NCBI RefSeq assembly: GCF_000384815.1
Contig: NZ_ARQF01000020.1
Location: 1 to 64,000, forward strand
From: Halodesulfovibrio aestuarii DSM 17919 = ATCC 29578
GTDB taxonomy: Bacteria > Desulfobacterota > Desulfovibrionia > Desulfovibrionales > Desulfovibrionaceae
DNA: 64,000 nucleotides
Reading direction: 5' to 3'
Within the stretch, counting starts at the first letter, position 1, and every line of letters starts with the position of its first letter. This document shows, piece by piece, positions 46,826-51,851 of the stretch. The notes below the pieces were generated by a model that was not told the origin of the DNA, did no database searches, and saw only the letters and a list, made by a program, of their open reading frames with translations. The translations under genes and the position numbers were made by a program.

Positions 46826-47749
46826 ATGTATAAACAAATTATTACACTATTTTTTACAGTAACACTTATGGTAACAGCTATTCCTGCATCAGCAGAAAAA
46901 GCTCCTATTCGATTTGCAGTACCACCATGGTCAGGTGCCATGGTAAAAGCAGAAATCGCCACCCAAATACTTGAGGCCATCGGCTATACAACCGCTACCA
47001 CGCCCATGGATGCAAGCGAAGCCTACGAAGCTCTTAAAAATGGCGATGTTGATGTATTCATGAGCGCTTGGCTCCCTACACAGGAAATGCTGCTTGCCCC
47101 GCTATTAAAAAATAACTCCGTACATGTTGCTGGCGCCAACGTTGAACACGCTCGAACCGGCCTCTGTGTTCCGGGATACGTAAGTAAAAAGGGAGTCACT
47201 TCGATTACAGATCTTGCACCGAGCGCTGCAAAGTTTGACTCAACTATCTACAATATTGAGCCGACCTCTGGCATGTATCTCGTTGTTGACAAGTACATTC
47301 ATAACGACTTTGAAGGACTCGGCAGCTGGAAACAGAAAGGGACATCAATAGACAACATGCTTGGTAATGTAATCAAAGCATTCAAAGAAAAACAGTGGAT
47401 TGTGTTCAGTTGCTGGGAACCGCACTGGATGAACATTACACTTGATATGCGATATCTAAAAGGTGTGAAAGGCTCTGAAGAGCTTATTGCAGAAAACACC
47501 ATCAACACACTTATACGCCCAGAGTTGAAGACTACATATCAGACTCCCTACATGATTCTTTCCCGCTTCAAAATTGACAAGCTCACACAGGGAAAATGGA
47601 CATACGATGTTTCGTTAAAAGGACAGTCTGTAAAAGAAACAGCCACTTCATGGATCAAGGGCAACCTCAATGTAGTTCGCCAGTGGCTTGGAAATCTTAA
47701 AGTAGCCAATGGCAAAAGAGCTGTTGATATCATCGAAACAAAGTTTTGA
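46826..47749 (+). CDS. OpuAC/ProX-like glycine betaine-type binding protein
   Basis: 307 aa with a signal peptide (residues 1-23, ending PASA). The mature part belongs to the OpuAC substrate-binding fold: RFAVPPWSGAMVKAEIATQIL, a DVDVFMSAWLPTQ segment near 72-84 and a late FSCWEPHWMNITLDMRYL, with aromatic residues that in this family form a cage for quaternary amines. It starts 7 nt after the ATPase gene with AGGAAG as SD. No ProV/ProW partner is nearby. It may serve a transporter encoded elsewhere or reach this position by insertion. Confidence 0.85.
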   Translation: MYKQIITLFFTVTLMVTAIPASAEKAPIRFAVPPWSGAMVKAEIATQILEAIGYTTATTPMDASEAYEALKNGDVDVFMSAWLPTQEMLLAPLLKNNSVHVAGANVEHARTGLCVPGYVSKKGVTSITDLAPSAAKFDSTIYNIEPTSGMYLVVDKYIHNDFEGLGSWKQKGTSIDNMLGNVIKAFKEKQWIVFSCWEPHWMNITLDMRYLKGVKGSEELIAENTINTLIRPELKTTYQTPYMILSRFKIDKLTQGKWTYDVSLKGQSVKETATSWIKGNLNVVRQWLGNLKVANGKRAVDIIETKF

Positions 47750-47767
47750 TTTTCAACAAAGTCGAAC

Positions 47768-47797
47768 TTGACATTTTTGTACAAGTCGTTGTAGTTG
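47768..47797 (+). promoter_or_regulatory. TTGACA element of the first symporter cassette
   Basis: TTGACA at 47768-47773 lies in a 21 bp stretch that is identical upstream of the second cassette (49858-49878). The hexamer begins 37 nt before the leader ATG in both copies. The matching -10 is poor (TAGTTG at 18 nt). It is either the -35 element of a promoter giving an almost leaderless transcript or part of a shared operator. Confidence 0.5.
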
Positions 47798-47804
47798 GAG
47801 AAAT

Positions 47805-47894
47805 ATGAACAAGCTCACCACCAACATCTTTTATGCATTTTTTGATTTCCGCGGCATTCAGGCCTGCGGATCGGTCGAGTATGTTCAAACATAA
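47805..47894 (+). CDS. leader peptide of first symporter cassette, Phe-rich
   Basis: 29 aa, below the usual gene-calling limit. Four Phe codons (TTT, TTT, TTT, TTC) and a Tyr lie at codons 9-15 (IFYAFFDF), followed by a CGSVE stretch shared with the second leader. GGAG at 47797-47800 can serve as SD. CGSV is encoded by the RNA segment that can pair with the terminator arm, so it is the RNA, not the peptide, that seems to be conserved. The small palindrome TATGTTCAAACATA spans the stop codon. The peptide probably has no function beyond ribosome position. Confidence 0.75.
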   Translation: MNKLTTNIFYAFFDFRGIQACGSVEYVQT

Positions 47895-47950
47895 CGTAAT
47901 ATAACTCTATGCACCGATGAAACCGCAGGCGAAAGTCTGCGGTTTTTTTT
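47862..47950 (+). promoter_or_regulatory. three-segment transcription attenuator (Phe type)
   Basis: Segment A (47862-47875, GCCTGCGGATCGGT) lies within the leader ORF. Segment B consists of ACCGAT (47913-47918) and CCGCAGGC (47923-47930). A and B can form 14 base pairs with a 4 nt bulge. B also forms the intrinsic terminator: AACCGCAGGC (47921-47930), loop GAAA, GTCTGCGGTT (47935-47944) and T8 to 47950. A ribosome stalled at the Phe codons leaves A free to pair with B and block termination; a ribosome that reaches the stop masks A and lets the terminator form. Confidence 0.8.
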
Positions 47951-47975
47951 ATACCCAATCACAAGGAAGGCACTC

Positions 47976-48143
47976 ATGTTACTAGGACTTGGAAGTATTG
48001 AAACGGCCCTGCCGTACTGGCTTTGCATTTTATCAACAATTGGCTGCATCGTTTACGGAATTAAGAACTGGAACAATGCAGGTACGCCTGACACCGTCAC
48101 AGCTGAAGTTGAATCAATAGTGCAAAATTGCACGGATAATTAA
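47976..48143 (+). CDS. symporter small accessory protein (first copy)
   Basis: 55 aa with AAGGAAGG as SD, 25 nt after the terminator. One membrane helix (about residues 13-28, PYWLCILSTIGCIVYG) is followed by a hydrophilic NWNNAGTPDT tail. The same small protein precedes the second symporter, and NCBI has a family name for such neighbours of SSS transporters (symporter small accessory protein). It probably forms a small subunit of the transporter. It is separated from the symporter gene by 14 nt. Confidence 0.8.
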   Translation: MLLGLGSIETALPYWLCILSTIGCIVYGIKNWNNAGTPDTVTAEVESIVQNCTDN

Positions 48144-48157
48144 AAGGAGAATCTGAC

Positions 48158-49753
48158 GTGGCCGTCAAACTTATTACTGCAATGCTGTACTTTGTTACAG
48201 TTTTCTATCTGGGCTGGAGAGGGTGGAAAGAGACCAAAGGCGCAAGCGACTACATGCTTGCAGGGCGCTCTGTTAACCCTTTTATTATGGCCATGTCATA
48301 TGGTGCCACTTTCGTATCCACCTCAGCCATCATCGGCTTTGGCGGTGTTGCAGCAATGTTCGGTATGCCTCTGCTCTGGCTTGCCTTTCTCACCATTTTT
48401 GTGGGTGTTTTCATTGCAATGGTATTCCTTGGCAAACGTACACGGCGCATGGGGCTTACTCTCAACTGTCACACTTTCCCGGAGTTGCTGGGCAAACGGT
48501 ACAATTCTAAATTTGTGCAGTCCTTTTCCGGCGGCATCATCTTTTTCTTCATTCCTGTTTATGCCGCCGCAGTGCTCACAGGTATCTGCCGCATGACAGA
48601 AGTATCCCTCGGTTTACCATACGAATGGATGCTCATCGGCATTACTGCCATCCTGTCTCTCTACGTTATTACTGGTGGTATGAAAGCCGTTATGTACACA
48701 GACGCATTCCAGGGCACAATAATGGCTGCTATGATGCTCTTCCTGCTCGGATATACATACTACCTGCTCGGCGGGGTCATTCCTGCACATGAAAAGCTTA
48801 CAGCCATGTCGCATCTTATGCCGCAGGCGCTCCAAAAAGGCGGAATTCTCGGCTGGACACAAGGCTCCGCACAGGGAACCCCTCTCTGGCTCGTTATCTA
48901 TACGACACTTGTGTACGGTGTAGGTATAGGCGTACTGGCACAACCCCAGCTTGTTGTTCGCTTTATGACTGTTTCCAGTGACAAGGAACTTAACCGTGCA
49001 GTGCTCTACGGTGCAATTTTTCTCCTGCTCACCGTTTTCGTTATCTTTGTCGTAGGCGCACTTTCAAACGCAATATTCTTCGATAACTTCGGAAAAATCA
49101 GCATCCAGATGGCGGGCGGCAACCTTGACAAAATTATTCCGGTGTTCATTGAAAGAATTATGCCGCCGTGGTTCTCCGCCGCATTCCTGCTTGCGATGTT
49201 TGCCGCTGCAATGTCGACCCTTTCAAGCCAATTCCATATTGGAGGAACTTCACTTGCTCACGATGTATCTCAAGTCGTCCTTCCAACTAAACGTGACGCC
49301 AAACAAATTAACCAGCTCGGGATCGTAATAACCATCCTTGCCACACTCATTTGGTCATGGCTGCTGCCGCCTTCCATTGTTGCACGCGCAACTGCGTTCT
49401 TCTTCGGACTCACAGGCGCGGCATTCCTTCCTGCATACGTCTTCGGACTCTACTGGAAAGGCATGACTAAATCCGGAGCAAAGGTATCCATGGTAGGCGG
49501 ATTCACAGTATCTATGCTATGGATGCTTTTTATCCATAAAAAAGAGGCTGTTGCCATAGGACTGTGCAAAGCCCTCTTCGGCAAAGCAACTCTCGTGGCA
49601 GACGCAGCACCCGGCAGCACTATGTTTCTGCTGCAATGGGTTGACCCGAACGTAGTTGCACTGCCAGTGTCCATCTCTATTGCTATCATCGTGAGTCTGG
49701 TTTCGCGTAGTCTTGCAGAAGACCATATCCAGCTTTGCTGGCAGAATAATTAA
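48158..49753 (+). CDS. sodium:solute symporter (SSS family), probable Phe transporter
   Basis: 531 aa, LeuT-fold transporter with about 13 membrane segments. It starts at GTG 48158 behind AAAAGGAGA. The SSS landmarks GASDYMLAGRSVNPFIMAMSYGATFVSTSAIIGFGG (residues 28-63) and the FAAAMSTLSSQFHIGGTSLAHDV segment, site of sodium-binding Ser residues, are clear. It is nearly identical along its whole length to the second copy. The substrate is inferred only from the Phe-rich attenuator ahead of it. No dehydrogenase or catabolic gene is nearby. Confidence 0.85.
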   Translation: MAVKLITAMLYFVTVFYLGWRGWKETKGASDYMLAGRSVNPFIMAMSYGATFVSTSAIIGFGGVAAMFGMPLLWLAFLTIFVGVFIAMVFLGKRTRRMGLTLNCHTFPELLGKRYNSKFVQSFSGGIIFFFIPVYAAAVLTGICRMTEVSLGLPYEWMLIGITAILSLYVITGGMKAVMYTDAFQGTIMAAMMLFLLGYTYYLLGGVIPAHEKLTAMSHLMPQALQKGGILGWTQGSAQGTPLWLVIYTTLVYGVGIGVLAQPQLVVRFMTVSSDKELNRAVLYGAIFLLLTVFVIFVVGALSNAIFFDNFGKISIQMAGGNLDKIIPVFIERIMPPWFSAAFLLAMFAAAMSTLSSQFHIGGTSLAHDVSQVVLPTKRDAKQINQLGIVITILATLIWSWLLPPSIVARATAFFFGLTGAAFLPAYVFGLYWKGMTKSGAKVSMVGGFTVSMLWMLFIHKKEAVAIGLCKALFGKATLVADAAPGSTMFLLQWVDPNVVALPVSISIAIIVSLVSRSLAEDHIQLCWQNN

Positions 49754-49773
49754 CCACGACAAACGACTCTTAT

Positions 49774-49800
49774 CTCAGGCGGGTCATAGGCCCGCCTGAG
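49774..49800 (+). terminator. hairpin after the first symporter gene
   Basis: CTCAGGCGGG (49774-49783) pairs perfectly with CCCGCCTGAG (49791-49800) around TCATAGG. There is no T-run, so termination is likely but not certain. The second cassette has its own promoter element downstream. Confidence 0.6.
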
Positions 49801-49862
49801 GCGTCTCTCAACCTGACCTCTTTCGATATAGCAAAAGAATACACTTTTCTGTTTTATCGAAC

Positions 49863-49892
49863 TTGACATTTTTGTACTACAGTGAGTACTAA
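49863..49892 (+). promoter_or_regulatory. TTGACA element of the second symporter cassette
   Basis: TTGACA at 49863-49868, with TACTAA after 18 nt (49887-49892). The surrounding 21 bp are the same as in the first cassette, as is the 37 nt distance to the leader ATG. The leader here lacks an SD at a workable distance (AAAGG is only 1 nt from the ATG), in favour of leaderless translation. Confidence 0.5.
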
Positions 49893-49899
49893 TAAAGGC

Positions 49900-49992
49900 A
49901 TGAACACAATCAACCGCCATATGAACAACTATTTCTATGCATATTATGGTTACCGCGTCTCCAAGACCTGCGGATCGGTTGAGTGCGCGTAA
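49900..49992 (+). CDS. leader peptide of second symporter cassette, Tyr-rich
   Basis: 30 aa. Five Tyr codons (four TAT, one TAC) and one Phe lie at codons 11-18 (YFYAYYGY), at the place where the first leader has Phe. The CGSVE stretch follows as in the first copy. A second in-frame ATG (49921) would give a 23-residue peptide with the same control codons. GTGCGC and GCGCAC form a small hairpin with the stop codon in its loop (49983-50000). Confidence 0.75.
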   Translation: MNTINRHMNNYFYAYYGYRVSKTCGSVECA

Positions 49993-50055
49993 CAGCGCAC
50001 ACAGATTAAGGGAATTATACCGACAAGCCGCAGGTGACAGCCTGCGGCTTTTTTT
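49966..50055 (+). promoter_or_regulatory. three-segment transcription attenuator (Tyr type)
   Basis: Segment A in the leader ORF (ACCTGCGG, 49966-49973, then TCGGT, 49975-49979) pairs with segment B (ACCGA, 50019-50023, and CCGCAGGT, 50028-50035). B forms the terminator AAGCCGCAGG / CCTGCGGCTT (50025-50034 with 50041-50050) followed by T5. Relative to the first copy the G-C pair at the end of A:B is replaced by A-T (49966 with 50035), a compensatory change, and the terminator stem has gained a compensated G-C pair. Confidence 0.8.
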
Positions 50056-50073
50056 ATGTAAAAGGAGAACTAC

Positions 50074-50235
50074 ATGCTGTTAGGACTCGGAAGCTTTGAA
50101 ACTGCTCTGCCTTACTGGCTCTGCATCATATCAACCATTGGCTGTGTCGCGTACGGCATTGCGAACTGGAACAACGCGGGTACGCCGGACACTGTAAATG
50201 TTGAATCGCTGGTGCAGGAAAGCACTGATAAGTAA
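50074..50235 (+). CDS. symporter small accessory protein (second copy)
   Basis: 53 aa, with AAAGGAG 7 nt before its ATG. It is clearly homologous to the first copy: the same GLGSxETALPYWLCI start, one membrane helix and the NWNNAGTPDT motif, with a slightly shorter and diverged tail. The symporter gene follows after 14 nt with its own SD. The conservation of a non-trivial tail between copies supports a real protein subunit. Confidence 0.8.
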   Translation: MLLGLGSFETALPYWLCIISTIGCVAYGIANWNNAGTPDTVNVESLVQESTDK

Positions 50236-50249
50236 CGGGAGAACTCGAC

Positions 50250-51851
50250 ATGGCCACCAAACTGATTACCTCACTGCTCTACTTTGGAATCGTCTTCTAC
50301 CTAGGCTGGAAAGGATGGAAGGAAACGAAAAATGCCGGCGACTACATGCTCGCCGGACGTTCTGTTAACCCTTTCGTCATGGCTATGTCGTATGGTGCAA
50401 CCTTTATCTCTACCTCTGCTATTATCGGATTCGGTGGCGTTGCGGCTATGTTCGGCATGTCGCTTCTCTGGCTGGCGTTCTTAAATATTTTTATGGGCAT
50501 TTTCATAGCGATGGTGTTTTTAGGCAAACGCACCCGTCGCATGGGCTTGGTACTAAACTGCCACACGTTTCCAGAGCTTCTCGGTAAACGCTACAACTCA
50601 AAATTTATCCAAAGCTTCTCGGGCGGTATTATCTTCTTCTTCATTCCCGTGTACGCTGCTGCGGTTCTCACCGGTATATGCCGAATGACAGAAGTTTCTC
50701 TTGGCTTGCCATACGAATGGATGCTTGTTGGCATCACGGCTATCTTGTCTCTTTACGTTATCACGGGCGGCATGAAAGCCGTTATGTACACAGACGCATT
50801 TCAGGGAACCATCATGGTTGCTATGATGGTCTTTTTGCTGGGCTACACCTACTACCTGCTTGGTGGTGTTATACCTGCGCATGAGACACTCACATCCATG
50901 GCGGATCTTGTGCCTGCCCCGCTACAAAAAGGCGGAATCTTAGGCTGGACACAGGGCACAAAGACAGGCTCCCCACTATGGCTCGTTATATACACCACCA
51001 TCGTATACGGCGTCGGCATCGGTGTTTTGGCACAACCGCAGCTTACAGTTCGATTCATGACTGTTTCCAGTGATAAAGAACTGAACCGTGCAGTGCTGTA
51101 CGGCTCCATATTTCTTCTGCTCACTATTGGCGTAGTCTACGTTGTGGGAGCACTCTCTAACGCAATTTTCTTTAACCAGTTTGGCAAAATCAGCATTCAG
51201 ATGGCTGGCGGCAACCTCGATAAAATCATTCCCGTTTTTATTGAAAAAGTAATGCCGCCTTGGTTCTCTGCCATGTTTCTGCTGGCTATGTTTGCCGCAG
51301 CCATGTCCACACTCTCCAGCCAGTTCCACATTGGTGGAACCTCTCTTGCGCATGATGTTTCAAGAAACATTATGCGAAGTAAAAACAATCTGAGCGCTTC
51401 ATCCATCAGCCAACTCGGCATTGTTGCTACTATTATTGCTACTCTTGTGTGGGCATGGCTGCTTCCTCCTTCCATTGTTGCACGCGCAACAGCGTTCTTC
51501 TTTGGATTAAGCGGAGCGACCTTCTTACCGGCATACGTCTTCGGACTTTACTGGAAAGGTATGACAAAATCCGGAGCCAAGCTCTCCATTGTGGGAGGAT
51601 TTACCGTTTCTATGTTGTGGATGCTGTTCATCCACAAAAAAGAAGCTGCGGCTATAGGCCTGTGCGAAACACTGTTTGGAAAAGTAACGCTTGTTACAGA
51701 TGCAGCACCGGGCAGCACAATGTTTCTCCTCCAATGGGTTGACCCGAATGTCATCGCGCTACCGATATCCATTGCAATTGCTGTCGGCGTAAGTCTTGTT
51801 TCCCGCAGCCTCGCGAAAGACCATATCCAGTTATGCTGGCAAAATTGCTAA
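50250..51851 (+). CDS. sodium:solute symporter (SSS family), probable Tyr transporter
   Basis: 533 aa, about 13 membrane segments, a close paralog of the preceding symporter and aligned with it from end to end. Differences cluster in the loop near residues 370-385 (SRNIMRSKNNLSASS versus SQVVLPTKRDAKQ in the first copy) and in conservative changes in the membrane. It carries the same SSS motifs, including FAAAMSTLSSQFHIGGTSLAHDV. The Tyr-rich attenuator suggests tyrosine as substrate; the sequence itself does not prove it. Confidence 0.85.
   Translation: MATKLITSLLYFGIVFYLGWKGWKETKNAGDYMLAGRSVNPFVMAMSYGATFISTSAIIGFGGVAAMFGMSLLWLAFLNIFMGIFIAMVFLGKRTRRMGLVLNCHTFPELLGKRYNSKFIQSFSGGIIFFFIPVYAAAVLTGICRMTEVSLGLPYEWMLVGITAILSLYVITGGMKAVMYTDAFQGTIMVAMMVFLLGYTYYLLGGVIPAHETLTSMADLVPAPLQKGGILGWTQGTKTGSPLWLVIYTTIVYGVGIGVLAQPQLTVRFMTVSSDKELNRAVLYGSIFLLLTIGVVYVVGALSNAIFFNQFGKISIQMAGGNLDKIIPVFIEKVMPPWFSAMFLLAMFAAAMSTLSSQFHIGGTSLAHDVSRNIMRSKNNLSASSISQLGIVATIIATLVWAWLLPPSIVARATAFFFGLSGATFLPAYVFGLYWKGMTKSGAKLSIVGGFTVSMLWMLFIHKKEAAAIGLCETLFGKVTLVTDAAPGSTMFLLQWVDPNVIALPISIAIAVGVSLVSRSLAKDHIQLCWQNC

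Follow-up and report, generated by a model that had tools for sequence, protein, structure and literature searches.

Two genes for sodium-driven SSS symporters of the marine sulfate reducer Halodesulfovibrio aestuarii DSM 17919, lying in the window analysed here (the whole stretch of 64,000 nucleotides), are each preceded by a gene for a small accessory protein and by a short leader ORF rich in aromatic codons. These two regions very probably represent tandem ribosome-mediated transcription attenuators with a three-segment core, which would act on predicted phenylalanine and tyrosine importers and belong to an order-wide aromatic regulon. The observation of a leader with its switch is confirmed as real and above chance. 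Pairing of segments 2 and 3 (2:3) gives the antiterminator, pairing of segments 3 and 4 (3:4) gives the terminator, and segment 1 is an auxiliary partner of segment 2 (1:2).

Two tandem leaders in the window

An earlier reading of this DNA, made from the sequence only, had described a 29-codon ORF with phenylalanine codons at positions 9-15, and both the ORF and its codons are as it claimed. The encoded peptide is MNKLTTNIFYAFFDFRGIQACGSVEYVQT (29 aa), with TTT at codons 9, 12 and 13, TTC at codon 15, and TAT (Tyr) at codon 10. The same reading proposed that a segment A (segment 2 here) pairs over 14 bp with a segment B (segment 3 here, ACCGAT-gaaa-CCGCAGGC). We found this pairing as 6 + 8 bp with a 4-nt bulge; the fold from A through B has an energy of -26.8 kcal/mol, and the A:B energy gives z = -4.3 relative to 100 dinucleotide shuffles. 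Folding also reproduced the dual use of B, whose other role is to form the left arm of a GAAA-loop terminator that runs into T8 (47919-47950; 12 pairs including A-U, -19.3 kcal/mol). Segment A can form an alternative hairpin with 47848-47855 (UCCGCGGC...GCCuGCGGA), which the earlier reading leaves unmentioned, as it does the Tyr codons of copy 2 and the spacing of the promoter. As judged by folding and alignment, the antiterminator excludes the terminator and overlaps the leader ORF. A search of positions 47500-50500 with 4227 Rfam families returned nothing at gathering score and one chance-level match far below it, and nine related loci likewise had no family match at gathering score.

The arrangement of leader, 2:3/3:4 switch, accessory gene and symporter recurs two kb downstream. 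Because the second copy carries a Tyr leader (five Tyr codons and one Phe), the description of the element as a Phe-codon leader fits copy 1 only. Furthermore, codon specificity is not absolute, because there is a Tyr codon in the run of copy 1 and a Phe codon in that of copy 2. Copy 2 also has a GUGCGC...GCGCAC hairpin between segments 2 and 3 (49983-50002), with the stop codon in its loop; its counterpart in copy 1 is the weaker UAUGUU/AACAUA. A hairpin at this place may have a role in drawing segments 2 and 3 together.

In profile searches, both symporters exceed the PF00474 gathering score, which marks them as SSS symporters. Symporter 1 missed the equivalog cutoffs for PutP (187.5 versus 515.5 bits) and PanF (163.4 versus 328.05 bits), and the outcome for symporter 2 was similar. 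The closest named match to the symporter is from H. spirochaetisodalis, with 93% identity, and a 30-row tree places symporter 2 as the sister of symporter 1. Between the paralogues (48158-51851), 33 alignment columns, some of them at gaps or ends, differ and are each fixed within a copy across six genomes. For example, F296 (numbered from symporter 1 codon 2) is present in copy a and in all 14 outgroup sequences and is Y in copy b. We dropped these fixed differences as an argument about specificity, as no firm argument follows from them. Directly upstream of the first leader, positions 46826-47749 encode a glycine betaine/choline-type ABC substrate-binding protein (OpuAC) that scores below the cutoff of the choline family model.

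Table 1. Predicted features of the two leader-symporter units, in window coordinates
Feature	Position	Strand	Basis
Inferred promoter, copy 1	47768..47796	+	-35 TTGACA 47768-47773, 17-nt spacer, weak -10 GTAGTT 47791-47796
Leader ORF 1 (Phe leader), 29 codons	47805..47894	+	sequence; member of conserved family
Control codons, copy 1: Phe 9, 12, 13, 15 (Tyr 10)	47829..47849	+	sequence
Segment 1, copy 1 (auxiliary), segment 2 partner	47848..47855	+	fold -13.1 kcal/mol; order-wide not above shuffles
Segment 2, copy 1 (A of the earlier reading), antiterminator 5' strand, GCCTGCGGATCGGT	47862..47875	+	fold, shuffles, covariation
Segment 3, copy 1 (B of the earlier reading), antiterminator 3' strand and terminator left arm	47913..47930	+	fold, covariation
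Segment 4, copy 1, and T8, terminator right arm	47935..47950	+	covariation, terminator scan
Symporter small accessory protein 1 (55 aa)	47976..48143	+	NCBIfam NF045580, 50 bits vs cutoff 35
SSS symporter 1, predicted Phe importer (substrate from leader codons)	48158..49753	+	PF00474, 189 bits
-35 box, copy 2	49863..49868	+	37 nt upstream of leader ATG
Leader ORF 2 (Tyr leader), MNTINRHMNNYFYAYYGYRVSKTCGSVECA	49900..49992	+	sequence; conserved family
Control codons, copy 2: Tyr 11, 13, 15, 16, 18 (Phe 12)	49930..49953	+	sequence
Segment 1, copy 2 (auxiliary)	49953..49960	+	fold -8.4 kcal/mol
Segment 2, copy 2	49966..49979	+	fold, shuffles
Segment 3, copy 2	50019..50035	+	fold, shuffles
Segment 4, copy 2, and T run	50040..50055	+	fold, terminator scan
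Symporter small accessory protein 2 (53 aa)	50074..50235	+	NF045580, 49.3 bits vs cutoff 35
SSS symporter 2, predicted Tyr importer (substrate from leader codons)	50250..51851	+	PF00474, 187.5 bits

Conservation of the leaders across the order

With a threshold of E <= 1e-150, the symporter was located at 81 places in 71 of 348 genomes of the order Desulfovibrionales. We took the upstream sequence of 80 of these places, leaving out one that offered 32 bases (G304) and including another with only 196 bases (G309). A leader ORF of 20-45 codons rich in aromatic residues lies upstream of 65 of the 80 loci, and these leaders comprise 61 distinct peptides of 25-41 aa, many of which repeat a tail resembling ACGxxxC. 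The 65 leaders are selected for aromatic content and for a -35 box, because the ORF filter demanded five or more aromatics within 16 residues and favoured an ATG accompanied by such a box. No leader was found at 15 of the 80 loci, one of which sits on a short contig end. On visual inspection, some of the 15 either lack the accessory gene or leave too narrow a gap to accommodate a leader.

Terminators were recognised by our script in 63 of the 65 leaders, and of the two that were missed (G004a and G315), G004a has a terminator that is visible by eye. The 2:3 pairing reaches p <= 0.01 relative to shuffles in 62 of these 63 leaders (median z -4.4), the exception (G298) having a poor terminator and poor 2:3 pairing. 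For covariation, we aligned 30 leaders chosen from the 65 and compared them with 500 shuffles, with kinship ignored. In the 2:3 helix, 93.7% of cells are paired (0/500 shuffles as high), with 12 double-change cells (1/500); in the 3:4 helix, 93.0% of cells are paired (0/500), with 27 double-change cells (0/500). Two of the five measures for 2:3 are not extreme, namely pairs changed on both sides (3; 45/500) and further pair types (13; 32/500), and the same holds for one measure of 3:4 (further pair types, 11; 496/500). When the partner is displaced by 1-3 columns, the paired share drops to 32-41% for 2:3 and to 25-56% for 3:4. Within segment 3, alignment column 178 has a partner in segment 2 in 29/30 leaders and one in segment 4 in just 13/30; the 2:3 pairing is therefore kept independently of the terminator, and segment 2 is no mere echo of segment 4. 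Conservation of the ORF and the pairing in related genomes, which the sequence-only reading had named as the check on its proposal, is therefore borne out by the recurrence of the leader, the shuffle comparisons and the covariation in both helices.

The promoter spacing is also conserved. The motif TTGA[C/G] begins 35-38 nt upstream of the leader ATG at 64 of the 65 loci (37 nt in copy 1), compared with 2/62 accessory-gene ATGs and 147/13000 random positions at the same distance, and 55/65 leaders keep the -35 box when the ORF is picked in its longest form without regard to the promoter. Predicted Shine-Dalgarno pairing averages -1.8 kcal/mol for the leaders (n = 65) and -9.1 kcal/mol for the accessory genes (n = 62), with values of -5 to -7 kcal/mol in some leaders. 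Because of this -35 spacing and the weak Shine-Dalgarno pairing, the leader mRNA is probably leaderless, with a start no more than about 2 nt from the ATG. A scan for strict consensus promoters found nothing at either window leader, and both -10 boxes are poor.

Among 63 leaders, which were selected for in-frame aromatics, the share of aromatic codons is 0.398 in frame versus 0.183 and 0.221, and in the six Tyr copies it is 0.286 in frame versus 0.048 and 0.135. Segment 2 begins a median of 7 nt after the start of the last preceding aromatic codon. Each of the 63 leaders has at least four control codons placed to leave segment 2 free on stalling.

Ribosome position and competing explanations

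We propose that RNA polymerase would start at or next to the leader ATG, as promoter geometry suggests, and that a ribosome would load on the 5' end at once. A shortage of charged tRNA, of tRNA-Phe for copy 1 or of tRNA-Tyr for copy 2, would make the ribosome wait in the run of aromatic codons, leaving segment 2 free a few nucleotides downstream to pair with nascent segment 3; the terminator would be blocked and the symporter expressed. With charged tRNA at hand, the ribosome would cover segment 2, 3:4 would form, and transcription would stop before the symporter. In both window copies, segment 1 could also sequester segment 2 behind the ribosome.

A ribosome-position model, which assumes a footprint of 13 nt from the start of the A-site codon and no pairing across the ribosome, agrees with this scheme. 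Before segment 4 is made, the predicted 2:3 pairing in copy 1 is 0.77-0.78 with the A site at codons 1-16, 0.44 at codon 17 and 0.00 from codon 18, and in copy 2 it is 0.88 up to codon 18, 0.77 at codon 19, 0.44 at codon 20 and 0.01 at codon 21. Because the modelled 2:3 pairing depends in this manner on A-site position, stalling in the aromatic run would permit antitermination and running on would forbid it. This outcome fits the earlier claim that stalling at the Phe codons, the last of which are codons 12, 13 and 15, frees segment A and that translation to the stop codon hides it. Once segment 4 is present, the equilibrium model gives 2:3 at most 0.04 at every ribosome position, and therefore the switch must be kinetic, as known attenuators likewise are. 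With no ribosome and before segment 4, the model still favours 2:3 (0.63 in copy 1 and 0.86 in copy 2), unlike classical superattenuation. Behind a ribosome at the stop codon, 1:2 is predicted at 0.85 in copy 1 and 0.38 in copy 2, and in the window copies this hairpin may offer additional protection once the ribosome has moved on. Where 1:2 is weak, the switch would need a ribosome on the RNA at an early stage, and a leaderless start would supply one.

The role of segment 1 separates our preferred reading from a classical four-segment attenuator of the E. coli trp or phe kind, in which a 1:2 protector decides 2:3 and untranslated RNA terminates. Both window copies can form 1:2, its inner stem differs between them yet is still pairable in a shifted register, and the model predicts the hairpin behind a ribosome at the stop codon. 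Across the order, however, 1:2 does not exceed shuffles (median z -0.3, n = 63), and at equilibrium 2:3 prevails over it; we consider a four-segment attenuator unlikely, if worth keeping in mind. The simpler three-segment form put forward from the sequence agrees with the model and with the order-wide 1:2 result, and needs the qualification that a hairpin able to sequester A is present in both copies. Instead of being read as codons, the U-rich tract might bind a protein or an RNA, or belong to a riboswitch, and thereby control the terminator. A Phe run is indeed a U/C-rich tract, and the pairing is conserved. We nevertheless give this idea very little credence, as Tyr and Trp codons replace or join Phe according to the gene, aromatic codons are concentrated in one frame (the one for which the leaders were preselected), and no Rfam family matches. 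Nor do we think much of the prospect that the short ORF encodes a functional small protein co-expressed with the symporter, past an ordinary, partial terminator. Conservation of the ORF and the ACGxxxC-like tail of many leaders would suit such a protein, but the tail largely results from the translation of segment 2, and the 65 leaders comprise 61 distinct peptides that range from 25 to 41 aa and differ at the N-terminus, with 2:3 retained across this variation.

Attenuation might also be real and the cargo of the symporters something other than Phe or Tyr, such as an aromatic keto acid, phenylacetate or a peptide. The substrate assignment comes solely from the leader codons, and a word search of a review of prokaryotic SSS proteins (PMC7918813) finds no mention of phenylalanine, tyrosine or aromatic. 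Moreover, the pair of accessory protein and SSS symporter is widespread, occurring in Methanosarcinales, spirochaetes, Bacteroidales and others (L058-L108), where an ORF scan saw no clear aromatic leader of the Desulfovibrionales layout and a few weak aromatic-rich candidates (e.g., L062, L081 and L082). However, given a switch that responds to Phe or Tyr starvation, with codons specific to each paralogue, an importer of that amino acid is the simplest cargo, and a different one seems to us improbable without being far-fetched. We infer that the substrate of the copy 1 symporter is Phe and that of copy 2 is Tyr. The attenuators would thereby predict substrates for an orphan system of symporter and accessory protein.

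Biosynthetic leaders and known attenuators

A covariance model (R1) was searched in the 348 genomes of the order. It has matches at E <= 1e-3 in at most 315 of them, an upper bound because some weak matches are bare terminators. One match within the window's own genome, at C21:669742 (E 1e-6), was discarded because it consists of a 13-aa ORF and a bare terminator. Among 60 strong non-symporter matches picked from those listed, an ADH-synthase-like ORF (by motif) is next downstream in 58, and the other two end at contig edges. A profile search named two ADH-synthase-like representatives, and in one example the next genes encode 3-dehydroquinate synthase II and then chorismate mutase/prephenate dehydratase. 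The window's own genome has one such locus (L196, C19:455597-455770, E 1.8e-9), where a leader with Phe, Tyr and Trp codons (MNAIFAKPASYETNFYFWFFFSYGK...) precedes ADH synthase and DHQ synthase II genes; a -35 box is absent there at the leaderless distance. Since biosynthetic genes of these bacteria have this kind of element upstream as well, it is not transporter-specific, and the earlier proposal of control over an SSS symporter holds in that the switch precedes symporters and needs widening beyond them.

Trp codons stand before segment 2 in 36/38 leaders of ADH synthase genes followed by a DHQ-synthase-II motif versus 0/63 symporter leaders (Fisher p 2e-25, kinship ignored), segment 2 having been located by pattern in the biosynthetic leaders and by duplex in the symporter leaders. 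There are two exceptions: in L213, an ATG further upstream opens an overlapping frame that reads MNVQLSNHNLSYFWFFWYYYFMRACG, and L227 looks frame-shifted. ADH-synthase copies with no detected neighbour, some of them in regions cut short, have Trp in 3/26. Among the symporters, the a/b pair of six genomes has leaders with four to six Phe codons in copy a and with one Phe and five Tyr codons in copy b, the latter being Tyr-rich in 6/6; symporters a and b form one clade of 12 in the 30-row tree. The pairs of two genomes of the same genus (G004 and G005) fall outside this clade and have Phe leaders, with no leader at G004b. The Phe-to-Tyr difference between paralogues amounts to a natural codon-swap experiment. 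In these sequences, codon identity tracks the downstream gene.

The general kind of element is known. The pheL/pheA and trpL/trp attenuators of E. coli have a leader ORF with codons for the regulated amino acid and a competition between antiterminator and terminator, and both traits are shared by the Desulfovibrionales elements. The latter differ in being probably leaderless, in lacking a 1:2 protector conserved order-wide, and in targeting SSS symporters. Mycobacterial poly-Cys leaderless uORFs reportedly act as attenuators and are similar in being leaderless, whereas the amino acid, phylum and genes differ. The E. coli systems are mentioned in sections of PMC5343134 and PMC7298713, and the latter describes a trpL transcript of Sinorhizobium meliloti that begins at the ATG of the leader ORF. 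This start, which is predicted for our leaders, and attenuation by an aromatic amino acid are points of likeness, whereas the S. meliloti element serves Trp biosynthesis in an alphaproteobacterium, and the elements described here precede Phe/Tyr transporters and, in the Phe+Tyr+Trp version, ADH synthase. In Acholeplasma, uORFC-13-1 upstream of aroF is likewise a suspected Phe-codon uORF with a terminator (PMC8632094), but it has a ribosome-binding site, precedes no transporter and belongs to an unrelated taxon. The Corynebacterium ilvB-II uORF (PMC11109978) follows the same two-stem logic, with an upstream antiterminator that competes with the terminator and an abundance of the relevant codons, there for branched-chain amino acids and biosynthesis. 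Searches of the open-licence PMC literature yielded no account of leaders of this type upstream of SSS symporters or in Desulfovibrionales, which does not prove that none exists. What the present elements add for this order is a three-segment, probably leaderless form of amino acid attenuation.

The biosynthetic leader is a candidate cause of two reported responses of aromatic genes: the co-regulation of a cluster from aldolase to trpF in D. hydrothermalis (PMC4162548) and the nitrate induction of aromatic genes in D. desulfuricans, called unexplained by its authors (PMC5701242). A broader proposal, on which we are evenly divided, is that Desulfovibrionales run aromatic amino acid synthesis and uptake jointly by means of a single family of leaderless three-segment attenuators, in which the leader codons spell out what the gene behind them supplies: Phe, Tyr and Trp at the biosynthetic operon, Phe at the ordinary symporter, and Tyr at the additional copy that arose by duplication in the Halodesulfovibrio group. 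Leader codons would then reveal the substrates of orphan transporters made of an SSS protein and its accessory protein, and the leaderless start would replace the protector hairpin in coupling ribosome and polymerase.

Beyond the order, R1 has matches at 1e-4 in 51 of 297 genomes drawn from the phylum, 11 of these 51 being in the window's own family. At the loci inspected outside Desulfovibrionales, aromatic leaders precede genes for ADH synthase, DAHP synthases, an aminotransferase, ABC substrate-binding proteins and an MBL-fold protein. Shine-Dalgarno pairing is -3.8 kcal/mol or stronger at 12 of 16 such loci, and 14 of the same 16 have no -35 box near the leaderless distance, the two with one being L272 and L291. 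Because the loci outside the order mostly have this pairing and no such box, the leaderless form looks typical of Desulfovibrionales and is perhaps not exclusive to them. The 2:3 pairing is weak in L287 and L289 by simple shuffles. In other orders of the phylum, four loci (L287, L294, L291 and L286) have a Phe-rich leader and a terminator before branched-chain-type ABC substrate-binding-like genes, of which that of L287 alone was named by profile, and the ORF start of L286 is ambiguous. This pattern suggests that aromatic amino acid ABC importers are under similar control in those orders. At L279, L284 and L289, a short Phe/Tyr leader with a terminator lies before an MBL-fold hydrolase-like gene, assigned by profile for L279 and by resemblance for the other two.
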